Assembly: GCA_017620395.1 (NCBI GenBank)
Contig: JAFZQJ010000015.1
Coordinates: 1 to 64,000 of the forward strand
Reading direction: 5' to 3'
Length of the DNA: 64,000 nt
From: Clostridia bacterium
Lineage (GTDB): Bacteria; Bacillota; Clostridia; Oscillospirales; RGIG8002
The position numbers were made by a program, and so were the translations under genes. Below are positions 3,524 to 10,571 of this stretch, in pieces. Below the pieces are notes generated by a model. It did not search any database. It saw only the letters and a list, made by a program, of their open reading frames with translations, and had not been told where the DNA came from. Numbering within the stretch: position 1 is the stretch's first letter; the number at the start of each line of letters is the position of its first letter.

Positions 3524-3562
3524 GGCCCGGGAACAGACTTCTCGCGTGTTTGTTCCCGGGCC
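3524..3562 (-). terminator. Hairpin ending the feo operon
   Basis: A perfect 12-base, GC-rich stem (3524-3535 with 3551-3562, arm GGCCCGGGAACA) lies just after the last feo gene. The tract after it on the minus strand is T-containing but not a clean U-run, so termination may be partial and allow read-through into the ABC exporter. Confidence 0.65.
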
Positions 3563-3572
3563 GAGCCATGCG

Positions 3573-3743
3573 TTATGATTTCTTTTCGCAGCAGGAGCAA
3601 CCCATTCCGCAGGAGGCGCAGTTGCCGGTGCATCCGCCGCGCTTTTTGCTCTTTACCAGAGAGAGCACCGCGATACCGACCGCGGCAAGCACCGCCGCTA
3701 TCGCGATTATCGTTACCGCGTTATCCGCGATCCATGCAAACAT
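3573..3743 (-). CDS. FeoB-associated Cys-rich membrane protein
   Basis: A 56-residue protein with one N-terminal transmembrane helix (about residues 4-30, rich in Ala, Ile and Val), a short basic stretch KSKKRGG, and a cysteine cluster CTGNCASCGMGCSCC near the end. Small proteins of this architecture are commonly found directly after feoB in Firmicutes and are thought to assist Fe(II) passage, in the position of proteobacterial FeoC; the mechanism is not established. AAAGGAG lies upstream of the ATG, which begins 22 bases after the feoB stop, and the operon hairpin follows the stop. Confidence 0.88.
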   Translation of the reverse strand: MFAWIADNAVTIIAIAAVLAAVGIAVLSLVKSKKRGGCTGNCASCGMGCSCCEKKS

Positions 3744-6325: not shown

Positions 6326-6343
6326 GGTTAGCGTCCGCTAACC
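6326..6343. promoter_or_regulatory. Intra-operon Feo palindrome (fourth copy)
   Basis: GGTTAGC-GTCC-GCTAACC, a perfect 7-base inverted repeat with a 4-base centre, lies between the second feoA and feoB. It has the same half-sites as the three copies upstream of the operon. It is not followed by a U-run on either strand, so a binding site is more likely than a terminator. It may add a second level of iron control over feoB. Confidence 0.7.
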
Positions 6344-6838: not shown

Positions 6839-6854
6839 GTTAGCGATTGCTAAC
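6839..6854. promoter_or_regulatory. Feo operator A
   Basis: GTTAGC-GATT-GCTAAC, a perfect 6-base inverted repeat with a 4-base centre, sits immediately 5' of the ribosome-binding site of the first feoA, inside the expected transcript leader. Its centre is 34 bases from that of operator B. Confidence 0.75.
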
Positions 6855-6866
6855 TACCTGTCAAAA

Positions 6867-6894
6867 TATACGGTTAGCCTTCGCTAACCGTATA
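6867..6894. promoter_or_regulatory. Feo operator B
   Basis: The strongest copy: 12-base perfect arms (TATACGGTTAGC and its complement) around a CTTC centre. It covers the predicted transcription start of the feo promoter, next to the -10 box at 6897-6902. Bound repressor here would block initiation. Confidence 0.8.
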
Positions 6895-6896
6895 TA

Positions 6897-6925
6897 ATTA
6901 TAGTTAGCGCCCGCTAACTTGTCAA
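6897..6925 (-). promoter_or_regulatory. feo promoter with operator C inside the spacer
   Basis: Consensus sigma-A elements on the minus strand: -35 TTGACA (6920-6925), a 17-base spacer and -10 TATAAT (6897-6902). The spacer is filled almost entirely by GTTAGC-GCCC-GCTAAC (6903-6918). A perfect promoter with operators in the spacer and over the start site indicates a strong gene normally held off, matching iron-repressed ferrous uptake. Confidence 0.88.
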
Positions 6926-7040: not shown

Positions 7041-7412
7041 ATGGCGATGCGCGAATCCGGCGAAATGTACCTCGAAACGATACTCGTATTATCGCAGAAG
7101 AACGCGAACGTCCGCGCGGTCGACGTGGGAGAGCATATGGGCTTTTCCAAACCGTCCGTAAGCCGCGCCATGGGTCTGCTCAAAAAAGAAGGACACGTTG
7201 AAACCGACGCGCAGGGCTACATAAGGCTGACGGAATCTGGAAAAGCGATAGCTAAGAGGATATATGAGAGGCATACGCTCCTCAGCCGGCTGCTGATAAG
7301 TCTCGGAGTCGATGAAAAGACCGCGACCGAAGACGCCTGCCGCATCGAGCATTATCTCAGCGACGAAACCTTCGCCGCGATAAAGAAGCACGCGAGCGAA
7401 TACGGCGGATAA
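7041..7412 (+). CDS. DtxR/MntR-family metal-dependent repressor
   Basis: A 123-residue regulator of the iron/manganese-sensing DtxR family. The N-terminal winged helix (EMYLETILVLSQ, VDVGEHMGFSKPSVSRAMGLL) is followed by the metal-binding and dimerisation helices, including ERHTLLSRLLISLGVD and EDACRIEHYLSDETF; the Glu-Asp-Ala-Cys-x-x-Glu-His segment is the typical metal-ligand region. The short length without an SH3 domain resembles MntR and short IdeR forms. I prefer the ATG at 7041 because GAGGAG lies 8 bases before it; an upstream in-frame GTG at 7032 overlaps that site. It is divergent from the feo operon, whose promoter carries three palindromes, so Fe(II)-dependent repression of feo is the natural inference. 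Confidence 0.92.
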   Translation: MAMRESGEMYLETILVLSQKNANVRAVDVGEHMGFSKPSVSRAMGLLKKEGHVETDAQGYIRLTESGKAIAKRIYERHTLLSRLLISLGVDEKTATEDACRIEHYLSDETFAAIKKHASEYGG

Positions 7413-7418
7413 TAATCG

Positions 7419-7470
7419 CGATATAAAAAAACAAGCGCCCGAAGGGGTGCCTTTCATAAAGCAGGTTTTA
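7419..7470 (+). repeat. Left inverted repeat bracketing the XRE cassette
   Basis: This 52-base segment matches, in inverted orientation, 9571-9618. The shared blocks are CGATA, an A-run followed by CAAGCGCCC, and the 13-base ATAAAGCAGGTTT, with a diverged middle. Within it GCGCCC-GAAG-GGGTGC (7435-7450) forms a hairpin that can terminate the dtxR transcript on the plus strand and, on the minus strand, precedes CTTGTTTTTTT. It starts only 7 bases after the dtxR stop codon. Confidence 0.6.
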
Positions 7471-7485
7471 CCTGCCGAAAAAAGC

Positions 7486-7520
7486 AAAAGGAGTACGAGC
7501 GTTTTGTTCGTACTCCTTTT
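7486..7520. terminator. Perfect 13-base hairpin
   Basis: Arms AAAAGGAGTACGA (7486-7498) and its exact complement (7508-7520) enclose a 9-base loop. On the minus strand it is followed by GCTTTTTTC, so it reads best as a minus-strand terminator, but no minus-strand gene has been recognised upstream of it. It may belong to the inserted cassette. Confidence 0.6.
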
Positions 7521-7586
7521 CACGCGCCTTGCTTACAAGGTATAGTGTGTTACACCTTTCAGATGAACTGTCGGGCGACAATGAGC

Positions 7587-7617
7587 CTCCCTTTACACAA
7601 GGGAGCCTTTCTTTTTG
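7587..7617 (+). terminator. Hairpin with U-run upstream of the XRE genes
   Basis: CTCCCTT-TACAC-AAGGGAG (7587-7605) is followed by CCTTTCTTTTTG, a plus-strand intrinsic terminator shape. With the two hairpins before it, the whole 7413-7744 gap consists of termination signals and unrecognised sequence; no gene is visible in it. Confidence 0.6.
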
Positions 7618-7744
7618 TTCATCTATAACTTGTCAATTTTCCTGACAAGCACTGCTTTTGTGGACACAAAAGCCATTTGCTACATTTGGTTGATTGTTGT
7701 GCGTTTTATTCTCCAAATCAGAGAAATGATAGAATATCGCTCTG

Positions 7745-7773
7745 TTGACTCTACTGTTGGTTTCGTGTATAAT
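7745..7773 (+). promoter_or_regulatory. Promoter of the XRE pair
   Basis: TTGACT (7745-7750), 17 bases, TATAAT (7768-7773), 46 bases upstream of the first XRE start codon. Near-consensus spacing and sequence suggest a strong promoter. No obvious palindrome overlaps it. Confidence 0.8.
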
Positions 7774-7819
7774 CTAGTCACAAGCTCCGGAACTTGAATT
7801 TTTTCGAGAGGTGAAAAAT

Positions 7820-8683
7820 ATGTACGAATGTAAGATTGCAGAAAAATTGGTGGAGCTCCGCACATCAAAGGGAGTAACACAAGAAGATGTGGCACAAAAC
7901 CTATCTATTTCAAATAAAACGGTGTCCAAATGGGAGAATGGTGCCTCGACACCTGATCTCCCTATGGTTGTAGAACTCGCAAAGTATTATGGTGTCACTA
8001 CTGACACGCTTCTCGGACTTTCCGAGGATAAAAAGCAAAGCACGACGGAAGAAATCCGCTCTTTGTTTGAAGGGCTTGATCGCCGCGAATCTGTGCTAAA
8101 AGCATTTGAAGCGGTAAGAGCACTTATTCCGGCTATGTATGGAACAGTTTCCCAATATAGTGATGATATATATGATAGAGAAAATGTTTTTCCGCCTGAG
8201 ATATCGCATTTTTATCGTTCTAACATATCGCTTCATGAGTTTTTTGAGTTCGTAGCAAGCTCCGAAAATGCAAACGTGGCGGTAATGATGCTCCGCAACA
8301 AAGCTGATTTTGCATGGATGAACGATTCGAATAAGCAAAAAGAAATCGTTAAAATCTTCAAGTTCTTGTCGAGTGAAGATGCTTTGTCCGTTCTTTATTA
8401 TGTTCATTCCACCGCATGCTCTGAAAGTTTCACGGCAGACTATATTGCAAAGAATACGGGCGTAAAGGAAGAACGAGTTTCCGAAATTCTCGATGAATTC
8501 TGTTCTGTAGGAGCATGCCATTGGGTAACAGCGCATCTTGCCGAAGGAGATGTGAGAGTGTATGAATGCCACGGAGACGGTCTTGTTCTCTCCTTAATTT
8601 CCTTGGCATTTGAAAGAATGTGCGGTAGAGAGTCCTACGAATACAACTTCAACGGAAGATGCAAAATGATCGGAGGTAAATAA
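7820..8683 (+). CDS. XRE-family regulator with C-terminal winged-helix-like domain (1)
   Basis: A 287-residue protein. Residues 1-60 form a Cro/C1-type helix-turn-helix, with GVTQEDVAQNLSISNKTVSK as the recognition unit and PDLPMVVELAKYYGVTTDTLLG completing the domain. The remainder is not a familiar ligand domain; a stretch from FLSSEDALSVLYYVHSTACS to RVSEILDEFCSVGACHWV looks like a second, winged-helix DNA-binding fold. AGAGGTG precedes the ATG at 7820, which I prefer to an in-frame GTG at 7811 that overlaps it. Codon use is AT-rich compared with all neighbours. It is followed 3 bases later by a paralogue of the same architecture, suggesting a duplicated pair that may act together. The target is unknown. 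Confidence 0.85.
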   Translation: MYECKIAEKLVELRTSKGVTQEDVAQNLSISNKTVSKWENGASTPDLPMVVELAKYYGVTTDTLLGLSEDKKQSTTEEIRSLFEGLDRRESVLKAFEAVRALIPAMYGTVSQYSDDIYDRENVFPPEISHFYRSNISLHEFFEFVASSENANVAVMMLRNKADFAWMNDSNKQKEIVKIFKFLSSEDALSVLYYVHSTACSESFTADYIAKNTGVKEERVSEILDEFCSVGACHWVTAHLAEGDVRVYECHGDGLVLSLISLAFERMCGRESYEYNFNGRCKMIGGK

Positions 8684-8685
8684 CT

Positions 8686-9513
8686 ATGAGTTTATCAGCT
8701 AATATCAAAAGATTGCGTCTTGAAAAGGATATGACACAAGAACAGCTCGCTACAAAGCTCGGCGTATCTGCGCAAGCAGTATCCAAGTGGGAAACGAGCG
8801 AAACCTATCCAGACGGAGCACTTCTTGTGCCACTTGCCAACGAGCTTGAGGTATCTCTTGACGAGCTTTTCGGGAATGAATCGGTTACAATGGCAGATAT
8901 TTCGTCCAAAATCGTGAAATTGATTCATGCAACAGAAGCAAATGAGCGTTTTAACGTTGCGCGTGATATCGGTTGGCAGATTGAGCGCGGTTTGTTTAAC
9001 TGTCGTATGGAAATCGAAAAGAAGTATGATCCCAACGAAATCAAAAATCAGAAAAACGCATCCTATATTCTTGACGATAACGGATTTACAATCGTTTCTA
9101 ATGGAATAGAACCTTTCTTCTCGGTATTTCCACAACCGACAGAGGGGTACGGACATTTTCTGAATGATAAGGACGACCTGCAAAAAATCTTTGCTGCACT
9201 GTCGCATACGGATACAATGAACGCTTTGATCTATTTGTATCATAAAACGGAGAATTATGTTTTTGAGAGCGCAGTGCTTGAGCGAGATTGCGAAATTGCA
9301 AGTGATCAAATCAATGCGGTAATAGATGATCTGTTGACGCTAAAGCTAATATGGAAACAGGAGCTTACAATTAACGGTAAAAAATGTGTTCTGTATTATT
9401 CTCGACCGAGCCACAAATTGCTTGCCGTATTGTTGATGACAAGAGAGATTGGCTATAAGGGAGCATACAGCCTACAATCACATATCAGAAATACGCCGTT
9501 TATTAAAGAATAA
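8686..9513 (+). CDS. XRE-family regulator with C-terminal winged-helix-like domain (2)
   Basis: A 275-residue protein, second of the tandem pair. The N-terminal Cro/C1 HTH is clear (DMTQEQLATKLGVSAQAVSK, then the typical LLVPLANELEVSLDELFG). The C-terminal half carries ALSHTDTMNALIYLYHKTEN followed by a helix-turn-helix-like segment (QINAVIDDLLTLKLIWKQEL) and a beta-rich end, mirroring the first protein. GGAGG sits upstream of the ATG and only two bases separate it from the preceding stop, so the genes are co-translated. A strong terminator follows at once, giving a compact two-gene unit. Base composition is AT-rich, consistent with acquisition from elsewhere. Confidence 0.85.
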   Translation: MSLSANIKRLRLEKDMTQEQLATKLGVSAQAVSKWETSETYPDGALLVPLANELEVSLDELFGNESVTMADISSKIVKLIHATEANERFNVARDIGWQIERGLFNCRMEIEKKYDPNEIKNQKNASYILDDNGFTIVSNGIEPFFSVFPQPTEGYGHFLNDKDDLQKIFAALSHTDTMNALIYLYHKTENYVFESAVLERDCEIASDQINAVIDDLLTLKLIWKQELTINGKKCVLYYSRPSHKLLAVLLMTREIGYKGAYSLQSHIRNTPFIKE

Positions 9514-9515
9514 TG

Positions 9516-9565
9516 AACCACCGCCGAGAGTAACCGTTTGGTCGCTTTCGGCGGTGGTTTTGTTT
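9516..9565 (+). terminator. Terminator of the XRE pair
   Basis: A perfect 12-base stem (9516-9527 with 9548-9559, arm AACCACCGCCGA) is followed by TTGTTT. It starts two bases after the second XRE stop codon. Confidence 0.9.
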
Positions 9566-9570
9566 GGCTT

Positions 9571-9618
9571 ATAAACCTGCTTTATCGCAGGTACGCCAAG
9601 GGCGCTTGTTTTTTATCG
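9571..9618 (-). repeat. Right inverted repeat bracketing the XRE cassette
   Basis: Inverted partner of 7419-7470. Read on the minus strand it begins CGAT, an A-run and CAAGCGCCC, and ends with ATAAAGCAGGTTT; the middle differs. On the plus strand it contains the hairpin ACCTGC-TTTATC-GCAGGT and then CGCC-AAG-GGCG followed by CTTGTTTTTT, an outward-facing terminator. The bases TCG stand immediately outside both repeats, a possible but very short target duplication. Confidence 0.6.
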
Positions 9619-9656: not shown

Positions 9657-10571
9657 CTACAGCTTCGCGAGCTCGGTGGCGGTCTTCGCGGCGAGCGCGG
9701 CGTTGTTCAGCACGAGCTTGATGTTCGCTTCCAGACTGTCGCCGCCGGTGATGTCCTTTATCTTCGCGAGCAGGAAGGGCGTCGTCGCTTTGCCGTGTAT
9801 GCCGAGGGCTTCCGCTTCCTTCACCGCTTCGTCTATCGCGCCGTTGATGTAGTCGGGATCCATCGAATACTCTTCCGGTATCGGGTTGGTGACGAGTATT
9901 CCCCCGCGAAGTCCCATATCCAGCTTCGCCTTGAAAGCCGCGGCGAGCTCCGCGGGCGTATCGAGGCGGTAGTCCACGCCGAAGCCGCTCTTGCGCGTAT
10001 AGAACGCGGGCAGCTCGTCAGTGCCGTAGCCGATGACGGGCACGCCCTTAGTCTCGAGGTATTCGAGCGTAAGGCCGAGGTCGAGAATGGATTTCGCGCC
10101 CGCGCATACGACCATGACGGGCGTTCCCGCGAGTTCCTCAAGGTCGGCGGAAATATCCATCGTCGTTTCCGCGCCCCTGTGTACGCCTCCGACGCCGCCG
10201 GTGGCGAAGACTTTTATCCCCGCCATCGCCGCGATTATCATCGTCGTAGCGACGGTGGTCGCGCCGTCCGCGCCCTTCGCAACGAGCACGGGCAGGTCGC
10301 GGCGGGACGCCTTCGTTACTCCCGCGCCGGTCTTGCCGAGGTATTCTATCTCTTCGGGAGAAAGCCCCGCCTTCAGCCGTCCGCAGATTATCGCTATCGT
10401 CGCGGGCACGGCGCCGTTGTCGCGGATCGTCTTCTCGACGGTAAGCGCCGTTTCCACGTTCTGCGGATACGGCATACCGTGCGATATTATCGTGGATTCG
10501 AGCGCGACGACGGGCTTGCCGACGTCGAGCGCCGCCTTAACTTCGGGCGAGATATCGAGATATTTATTCAT
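9657..10571 (-). CDS. psuG: Pseudouridine-5'-phosphate glycosidase
   Basis: Cleaves the C-C glycosidic bond of pseudouridine 5'-phosphate to uracil and ribose 5-phosphate, in the cytoplasm; 304 residues, normal length. The family hallmarks are clear: VALESTIISHGMPYP at the N-terminus, GAGVTKASRRDLP, and ATGGVGGVHRGAE. Glu25, Lys87 and Lys160 match in spacing the catalytic residues I recall for the E. coli enzyme (Glu31, Lys93 and the Schiff-base Lys166), so it should be active. It follows the kinase that makes its substrate, 18 bases downstream, giving a complete two-step route for salvage of pseudouridine from RNA turnover. No dedicated transporter lies beside it. Confidence 0.97.
   Translation of the reverse strand: MNKYLDISPEVKAALDVGKPVVALESTIISHGMPYPQNVETALTVEKTIRDNGAVPATIAIICGRLKAGLSPEEIEYLGKTGAGVTKASRRDLPVLVAKGADGATTVATTMIIAAMAGIKVFATGGVGGVHRGAETTMDISADLEELAGTPVMVVCAGAKSILDLGLTLEYLETKGVPVIGYGTDELPAFYTRKSGFGVDYRLDTPAELAAAFKAKLDMGLRGGILVTNPIPEEYSMDPDYINGAIDEAVKEAEALGIHGKATTPFLLAKIKDITGGDSLEANIKLVLNNAALAAKTATELAKL

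Follow-up and report, generated by a model that had tools for sequence, protein, structure and literature searches.

In the 64,000-nucleotide window analysed here, from a Clostridia bacterium, the convergent genes dtxR and psuG are separated by a 2154-bp segment (7444-9597, plus strand), which is almost certainly a mobile insertion within the loop of their shared terminator, as judged from its borders and relatives. This 2.15-kb element has two regulator genes aboard. Taken as a whole, it is probably a non-autonomous element that enters terminator loops, carries regulators as cargo and would be moved in trans by a serine recombinase.

Borders of the element and the divided host terminator

The dtxR/mntR-like metalloregulator gene (7041-7412, plus strand; Pfam PF02742/PF01325) converges from the left, with its stop codon 31 bp short of the element, and psuG (9657-10571, minus strand), of the pseudouridine-5'-phosphate glycosidase family (PF04227, E = 5.5e-133), converges from the right. 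Their bidirectional terminator, AAAAAACAAGCGCCC-GAA-GGGCGCTTGTTTTTT (the unbroken hairpin is also written AAAAAACAAGCGCCC-GAA-GGGCGCTTG), is cut in two by the 2,154-bp insertion. Sequence and folding place its 5' half AAAAAACAAGCGCCCG and the left AA copy at 7426-7443, and the right AA copy and its 3' half GGGCGCTTGTTTTTT at 9598-9614 (both plus strand). The arms 7426-7440 and 9600-9614 are complementary at 15/15 positions, a 15-mer inverted match of E = 3.8e-4 when the flanks are compared over 700 x 700 bp. Rejoining the host halves (from 7426 on, and 9600-9614) gives a perfect 15-bp hairpin of -22.4 kcal/mol. The target duplication is the 2-bp AA at 7442-7443 and 9598-9599, directly outside the element, and not the 3-base TCG that a sequence-only reading had suggested.

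The ends of the element are inverted repeats of ~23 bp that are able to form hairpins: GGGGTGCCTTTCATAAAGCAGGT at 7444-7466 (plus strand; pattern search) and GGCGTACCTGCGATAAAGCAGGT on the minus strand at 9575-9597 (complementarity, pattern search), with the arms 7444-7468 and 9573-9597 being 80% complementary. The sequence-only reading had described imperfect inverted repeats of about 50 bases at 7419-7470 and 9571-9618. Such repeats are indeed present, as the 15/15 and 80% complementary arms, but as terminal repeats they shrink to ~23 bp, for the outer 15 bp of each are, by their pairing, halves of the host terminator and not element ends. The two XRE genes, the several hairpins and the sharp shift in base composition that it reported between the repeats were all confirmed, with a GC content of ~0.41 within the element against 0.57-0.64 toward psuG.

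The borders were placed at 7444 and 9597 because a copy in the congener G002 (L014/L306) and ~30 sister elements show the same ends. In G002 the same two-XRE element lies inside a different terminator next to an MBL gene, with the host halves AAAAAACGCCGCCCG-AA and AA-TGGGCGGCGTTTTTT; its left arm is 97% identical, and the x2 C-terminus and right end are seen. The congener G003 is colinear over this site, where the terminator is intact and the element absent; the 2-bp direct repeat of the junctions is also present in the empty site. A clean dtxR-psuG empty site was not found in G002 and G003, in which psuG has other neighbours and dtxR is either missing or just 62% identical, so that the MBL-gene site supplies the empty-site proof in its place. 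A terminator of G001 at the MBL locus that seemed to bear a related insert was dismissed as chance similarity.

These comparisons leave practically no room for the view that the repeats are two ordinary terminators around an XRE pair long resident as an operon between dtxR and psuG. Each repeat can fold as a terminator-like hairpin, and the pair occupies the same site in both G000 and G001. Nevertheless, the repeats are complementary halves of a single hairpin, ~30 sister elements have the same structure, and the occurrence of the unit elsewhere in G002 together with the empty site in G003 refutes a resident operon. The proposal of a non-autonomous mobile unit without a transposase thus finds support in the G002 copy, of which both junctions are seen, the G003 empty site and the ~30 sister elements. 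Distant relatives do not keep the cassette at this place, nor do its repeats serve as ordinary terminators genome-wide: the end sequence occurs twice in its own genome, both times at this element, by which the idea of a dispersed terminator-associated repeat was abandoned.

A family of elements in terminator hairpins

Many genomes in the order have related ends, and every genome compared is a draft. A terminal inverted repeat (TIR) pattern gave ~125 matches in 34/45 genomes, compared to 0 for a reversed-pattern control. Terminator and duplication statistics were drawn from 31 complete elements of 195-3025 bp, 30 of which lie in split terminators, the exception being L225, which has no recognisable one. 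Across the 31 elements, the host halves form stems of 14.1 bp on average and hairpins with an energy of -19.3, compared to 6.5 bp and -8.0 for mismatched pairs. Matching 2-bp duplications occur at 29/31 sites (26% expected), just one of them reaching 3 bp, and 0/10,000 permutations attained the observed stem, energy or duplication values. On both sides of the element, host genes often have their stop codons at a distance of 15-35 bp. At the level of sequence, these data show a family in this order with ~23-bp inverted ends, a conserved non-coding left arm and variable cargo, whose insertions fall nearly always in terminator hairpins, for the most part between converging genes. What the elements land on is a shape, that of such a hairpin, and neither a sequence nor a gene; this accounts for their ability to spread in compact genomes while doing little harm.

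Exchange by homologous or illegitimate recombination at terminator hairpins that resemble one another, with no dedicated recombinase, could account for x1-x2 copies elsewhere that lack these ends and for the pairs at L030 and L032 that are flanked by direct terminator repeats. However, precise 2-bp duplications and constant ends at 29/31 sites need a precise cut-and-join reaction, and we regard this explanation as highly improbable.

Cargo, if any, is mainly a DNA-binding regulator (XRE, AraC or MerR), whereas copies of 195-390 bp without cargo are MITE-like in look. With regulators as the usual cargo, regulatory genes are shuffled as small cassettes between gut Clostridia. No transposase was found in any complete element (open reading frames, and Pfam on a sample of cargo proteins), nor was a small serine TnpA, and the presence of inverted repeats is unlike IS607. 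Similarly, neither the 7444-9597 element nor any of the complete sister elements encodes a large serine recombinase. Phage and plasmid records gave no left-arm match, viral contigs no promoter match, and the TIR search a lone right end, on which grounds a phage, plasmid or viral origin was dropped. Rfam gave nothing credible, and in the literature searched we found no account of a family of this kind.

A candidate serine recombinase and comparison with known systems

Four DUF4368 large serine recombinase genes (PF00239, PF07508 and PF14287 in the two that were scanned) end ~70 bp away from the hairpin end of the family, which is there followed by AA, GA or AG, and one of the four has a gene for a MobV relaxase nearby. 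Read in element orientation, the main subfamily has AA as its core 16-17 times but TT not once, and a second subfamily has TT 4 times but AA not once, which fits the expectation for a directional 2-bp core. TnpX and its relatives leave 2-bp direct repeats (PMC3158075). On this sequence evidence, we lean towards mobilisation in trans by a recombinase of the Tn4451/TnpX type (DUF4368). The cores vary (AA, GA, AT and TA), a looser requirement than serine integrases usually show. All four recombinase loci show the right-hand junction only, and none of the assembled elements combines a recombinase gene with both ends. At two or more of these loci some pairing also exists between inner and outer flanks, so that the end there may be a solo hairpin lodged in the terminator of the recombinase gene. 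The nearest homologue on a named plasmid, of Tn4451 type and 56% identical, has a different hairpin after it and no obvious position within a terminator; viral contigs yielded no such recombinase.

The element, having no recombinase, would be moved in trans by a TnpX-type enzyme exchanging strands at a 2-bp core between inverted half-sites, a shape that the element joint and the terminator would offer alike. The circular joint would then read right end-AA-left end, GCAGGTACGCC-AA-GGGGTGCCTTTC, and an autonomous DUF4368 partner would share the left end, as host half + RA + GGGGTGCC. More tentatively, the family may represent a cassette system of gut Clostridia, in which the in-trans serine recombinase might use almost any intrinsic terminator palindrome for its attachment site. 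It is conceivable that such an enzyme recognises structure or inverted symmetry, and not sequence, around a 2-bp core in the loop; perhaps single regulator genes spread in this way between genomes at near-neutral sites. If a serine recombinase is indeed responsible, it would rank as an uncommonly permissive site-specific integrase whose "safe harbour" targets lie between genes, and would be of interest to genome engineering in hard-to-manipulate bacteria.

The core of Tn4451 is GA, whereas the main core here is AA. Compared to the TnpX-type integrative mobilizable elements Tn4451, Tn4453 and Tn6104, the present element has neither recombinase nor relaxase and its family spans 0.2-3 kb, though a related DUF4368 recombinase and a MobV relaxase adjoin the same hairpin end. 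Both groups share 2-bp direct repeats, here found at the junctions and in the empty site, low insertion specificity and clostridial hosts (PMC3158075, PMC5704250); insertion into terminator loops is not mentioned in the passages of these papers on the Tn4451 group.

The family also resembles MITEs and mobile insertion cassettes, which are small and non-autonomous, with inverted ends, short target duplications and, in some, passenger genes; shared TIRs, target duplication with insertion polymorphism and the lack of a transposase are all found here. It differs in its strict terminator-loop target, regulator cargo and direction-specific core, and no parental DDE transposon was identified. Elements of the IS30 family have inverted ends, duplicate 2 bp and favour palindromic targets. 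If a DDE transposase, for instance of this family, acted in trans on what would be a MITE-like or cassette transposon, this would agree with the 2-bp duplications and palindromic targets seen here; the element's terminal repeat for such a comparison is GGSGYRCCTDCSATAAAGCAGRT. A core that is AA but never TT, or TT but never AA, is however unexpected for a symmetric DDE target; no complete element shows a transposase, and the only recombination enzymes adjoining the ends are serine recombinases. We therefore consider a DDE transposase unlikely.

Similar to integron gene cassettes, a hairpin-forming site accompanies a single-gene cassette that is mobile in trans, but here many scattered terminators are used, with a 2-bp duplication and ends on both sides, and there is neither array nor integrase. 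The SPRITE, RUP and BOX repeats of pneumococcus are likewise small, intergenic and, for SPRITE, terminator-like (PMC10969869, PMC3049150). Those repeats resemble terminators, whereas here a host terminator is split by the insertion, and genes may be carried.

The left arm and the regulator pair

The conserved non-coding left arm (7444-7673, plus strand) is shared, at least in part, with 60/394 genomes of the order, and its long matches mostly stop at 7673. It contains the element's own perfect hairpin AAAAGGAGTACGAGC...GTTCGTACTCCTTTT (7486-7520; -22.3 kcal/mol), which is two-way terminator-like, kept in sister elements and proposed to substitute for the broken host terminator. The split host halves and element sequence also partly re-form outward hairpins on folding. 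Transcriptional insulation, ascribed earlier to an outward terminator in each repeat, is thus plausible but built otherwise, from the 7486-7520 hairpin and these re-formed ones. With a terminator-like hairpin supplied by the element itself, the host should pay little for the insertion. A further hairpin, CTCCCTTTACACAAGGGAG (7587-7605), is replaced by a longer nested repeat in some sister elements, and the palindrome GCTTTTGTGGACACAAAAGC (7654-7673) marks the left-arm/cargo junction, where cargo switches between elements.

Downstream, an operator-like palindrome TCTCCAAATCAGAGA upstream of x1 (7710-7724) is kept in most of the x1-x2 family. Comparison of homologues defined the promoter TTGACT-17-TATAAT with a conserved spacer TTGACTCTACYRTTGGTTTCRTGTATAAT (7745-7773, plus strand), which is strongly conserved across the family; its motif occurs once in the genome, and a wider x1/x2 regulon was therefore dropped. 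The leader palindrome CAAGCTCCGGAACTTG (7781-7796), kept in most distant homologues, is likely an autoregulatory operator. The terminator hairpin after x2 (9516-9559, plus strand) is common to close x1-x2 copies at other sites.

The 287-residue x1 (7820-8683, plus strand; Pfam HTH_3) consists, in its AlphaFold2 model and by Foldseek, of an N-terminal XRE helix-turn-helix (HTH) domain and a C-terminal ArsR/SmtB-like winged helix. Its 275-residue paralogue x2 (8686-9513, plus strand) has the same predicted architecture and follows x1 in all members of the family. Both proteins probably bind DNA at the palindromes around their own promoter and so regulate themselves. Their PADLOC and PHROGs matches centre on the HTH region, with no defence or phage family match found beyond it, and NCBIfam matches fall under curated cut-offs. 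Among the matches listed from genome contigs, only x2 homologues of at least 40% identity have an x1 partner and the promoter; further matches in a wide contig scan are generic XRE genes. Homology of x1-x2 elsewhere extends only from promoter to terminator (~7707-9555), without these ends, by which the pair alone as a mobile unit with fixed ends was dropped. None of the other XRE-pair loci outside the genus has borders with such inverted repeats; L030 and L032 do have direct repeats of a terminator, which were set aside. In a genome of another family, x1 and x2 are 95/93% identical despite only 60% identity of RpoB, which indicates that the pair was horizontally transferred.

The regulator unit between dtxR and psuG

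The sequence-only reading described an AT-rich cassette of two regulator genes (7419-9618) bounded by ~50-base inverted repeats. In this window, which covers positions 1-64000 of contig 15 in a draft assembly of 1.93 Mb, two XRE-family genes do lie between the repeats, x1 at 7820-8683 and x2 at 8686-9513, and the GC content between the repeats is ~0.41, versus 0.57-0.64 on the psuG side. The inverted pairing also holds, with 7426-7440 and 9600-9614 complementary at 15 of 15 positions and 7444-7468 and 9573-9597 at 80%, but the outer 15 bp proved not to be the element's own repeat. As the homology of x1-x2 copies at other sites spans only ~7707-9555, the outer parts of the unit needed their own explanation. 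The left part (7426-7673) is a widespread repeat, at least part of which is present in 60 of 394 genomes of the order; copies outside the genus are at most 88% identical in the longest matches, and most of them stop at 7673, mostly without x1-x2. Side-by-side reading of the copies revealed that the first half of a hairpin with an A-run and a GC stem stands immediately before their left ends, and its second half immediately behind each right end that was found. Since sister copies start and end between the hairpin halves, the outer 15 bp of the window repeats are a single host terminator split in two, AAAAAACAAGCGCCC-GAA-GGGCGCTTGTTTTTT, whose parts rejoin into a perfect hairpin of -22.4 kcal/mol.

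The element proper covers 7444-9597 (2154 bp), has the ends GGGGTGCCTTTCATAAAGCAGGT and GGCGTACCTGCGATAAAGCAGGT, and is flanked by a 2-bp duplication, AA, at 7442-7443 and 9598-9599. We regard it as nearly certain that the unit at the dtxR/psuG site is an insertion. Nor are the repeats ordinary terminators found throughout the genome, the outcome that the sequence-only reading had set against its own proposal: the end sequence has two copies in this genome, both at the window element. The insertion site is common to this genome and its congener G001, and none of the four genomes of the genus that were compared has a clean dtxR-psuG empty site. Upstream of dtxR, several TTAGC-N5-GCTAA palindromes (6326-6342, 6840-6920) surround feoA/feoB-like genes and are probably metalloregulator boxes.

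A family of elements in terminator loops

Another congener, G002, has this element too: its left arm, 97% identical, lies directly 3' of an MBL-fold gene (locus L014), and a separate contig (L306) holds the x2 C-terminus and the right end. Behind that end stands AATGGGCGGCGTTTTTT, which completes a second terminator, AAAAAACGCCGCCC-GAAT-GGGCGGCGTTTTTT. Joined without the element, the G002 flanks align without a break to the orthologous stretch of the congener G003, in which the terminator AAAACAGCCGCCC-GCAA-GGGCGGCTGTTTT is intact. G003 thus offers a natural empty site for the G002 insertion. A ~45-bp repeat beside the MBL-fold gene (L014:942-1200 region) has many copies in each genome of the genus.

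Searching 45 genomes for the end motif GGSGYRCCTDCSATAAAGCAGRT with at most two mismatches yielded ~125 matches in 34 of them, which is no prevalence because nearly all 45 had been picked for carrying the left arm; the reversed control pattern gave no match in the same genomes. From the fetched loci we gathered 31 complete elements of 195-3025 bp, an under-sampling because repeated elements break contigs in drafts, and these genomes are drafts, mostly metagenome-assembled. The joined host flanks of the 31 form a mean stem of 14.1 bp at -19.3 kcal/mol, compared to 6.5 bp and -8.0 kcal/mol for randomly paired flanks, L225 being the exception to the hairpin rule. An identical dinucleotide stands on both sides in 29 of 31 elements (26% expected), with the duplication reaching a third base in only one of the 29. 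None of 10,000 permutations attained the observed stem, energy or duplication value. Converging host genes often flank the element, their stop codons lying 15-35 bp from it on either side (31 and 33 bp in the window), so the targets are mostly terminators common to converging genes.

A second subfamily of 239-332 bp (L307-L311, in G057 and G140) also lies in terminator loops; its ends resemble GGGGTACCTACCGTAAAGCAGTT / CGGCGACCTGCGATAAAGCAGGT, and its core is TT. In addition, solo element-end-type hairpins of 28-32 bp (GGnGnACCTGCGATAAAGCAGGTnCnCC) occur inside terminators without left arm or cargo (L322, L324, L326, L329 and L344); they may be remnants, minimal elements or attachment sites.

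The x1-x2 pair and other cargo

Genes are absent from about half of the complete elements, transposase and integrase genes from all. The cargo of the others is mostly a DNA-binding regulator, as counted among loci chosen via one left arm and its end motif rather than in an unbiased census. XRE genes, called outside the Pfam-scanned set by similarity to the x1/x2 HTH, are carried by the elements of the window, G002, L223, L225, L228, L229, L237, L313, L336, L346 and L347. Further cargo comprises an AraC-type gene (L350), a MerR gene with an alpha/beta-hydrolase (L241), a GNAT acetyltransferase (L230) and a membrane-like protein (L345); among incomplete copies there are also an ArsR-type gene (L314) and many XRE genes.

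Homologues of x1 are patchily distributed over 12 of 394 genomes of the order, in every case with an x2 homologue downstream. The identities of x1 and x2, 95% and 93% in G219 (of a different family, f9) and 84% and 85% in G013, lie far above those of RpoB (60% and 65%, respectively), indicating that the pair has been horizontally transferred. A wider scan found a sharp border: x2 homologues of at least 40% identity (L039-L045) have an upstream x1 and a TTGACTCTACYRTTGGTTTCRTGTATAAT-type promoter, whereas the next-best ones checked, all below 33%, lack both. Most members keep an upstream palindrome, TCTCC-N5-GGAGA, and, within the leader, CAAGnTCCGGAnCTTG. The promoter motif is single-copy in the window's genome, and a regulon sharing it is thus not indicated. 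AlphaFold2 models of x1 and x2 (mean pLDDT 61-63) are confident only in two terminal domains, an N-terminal XRE helix-turn-helix and a C-terminal winged helix, and Foldseek matched individual domains of x1 to ImmR, DdrO and ArsR/SmtB-type proteins such as CzrA. Both look like putative autoregulated DNA-binding proteins. Direct terminator repeats surround two x1-x2 pairs outside the element family (L030:6828-7016 and 8895-9083, 189 bp, 90%; L032:1612-1658 and 3528-3575, 48 bp, 94%), hinting at another route into terminator regions.

The left arm has a perfect hairpin (7486-7520, -22.3 kcal/mol) with A- and T-runs at its sides, which could terminate transcription both ways, and the split terminator halves partly pair with element sequence to give outward hairpins again; insertion would therefore be nearly harmless to the host. 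Another hairpin, CTCCCTTTACACAAGGGAG, lies at 7587-7605; its counterpart in some of L224, L228, L229 and L231 is enlarged to an apparently nested palindromic repeat of ~150 bp (GGAGGTGG...GGAGGGATTGT...).

Candidate recombinases

A directional 2-bp core is a mark of serine integrases. In element orientation, the core reads AA 16-17 times and TT never in the main subfamily, and TT four times and AA never in the second; L230 was left out (imperfect duplication, AG/AA), and no weight was put on L345 and L350, whose left/right assignment is ambiguous. As a symmetric target would be expected to yield both orientations with a DDE enzyme, the one-way core argues against an IS30-like DDE transposase, which we consider an unlikely mover, and favours a large serine recombinase, which we somewhat incline to accept. 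A second point in favour of such a recombinase comes from four loci (L352, L353, L325 and L330), where a gene for a DUF4368-type enzyme of this class stops ~70 bp short of the same hairpin end; beyond that end come AA, GA or AG and a terminator 3' half. The two scanned recombinases contain PF00239, PF07508, PF13408 and PF14287, and one locus also has a MobV relaxase. Against a serine recombinase, the contigs stop before the left ends of these recombinase elements are reached, a different end is present in the nearest plasmid homologue (56%), and at some loci the inner and outer flanks partly pair with each other, so that the hairpin may be a solo one within the terminator of the recombinase gene.

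Tn4451/TnpX relatives are known to insert with low specificity and to leave 2-bp repeats, and these repeats occur in the circle and the empty site as well (PMC3158075, PMC5704250). Our search of the open-access literature, which leaves out most subscription journals, found no description of cargo elements inserting in terminator loops, an absence that is not proof. Non-autonomous elements with passenger genes are already known; what sets this family apart is its regulator cargo, its directional 2-bp core and its insertion in terminator loops. A Tn4451-type element with TnpV, TnpW, a plasmid recombination protein and a DUF4368 recombinase adjoins a bifunctional aminoglycoside resistance gene on a Klebsiella IncHI2 plasmid (NZ_MG288680.1), in a host far from the usual clostridial ones.
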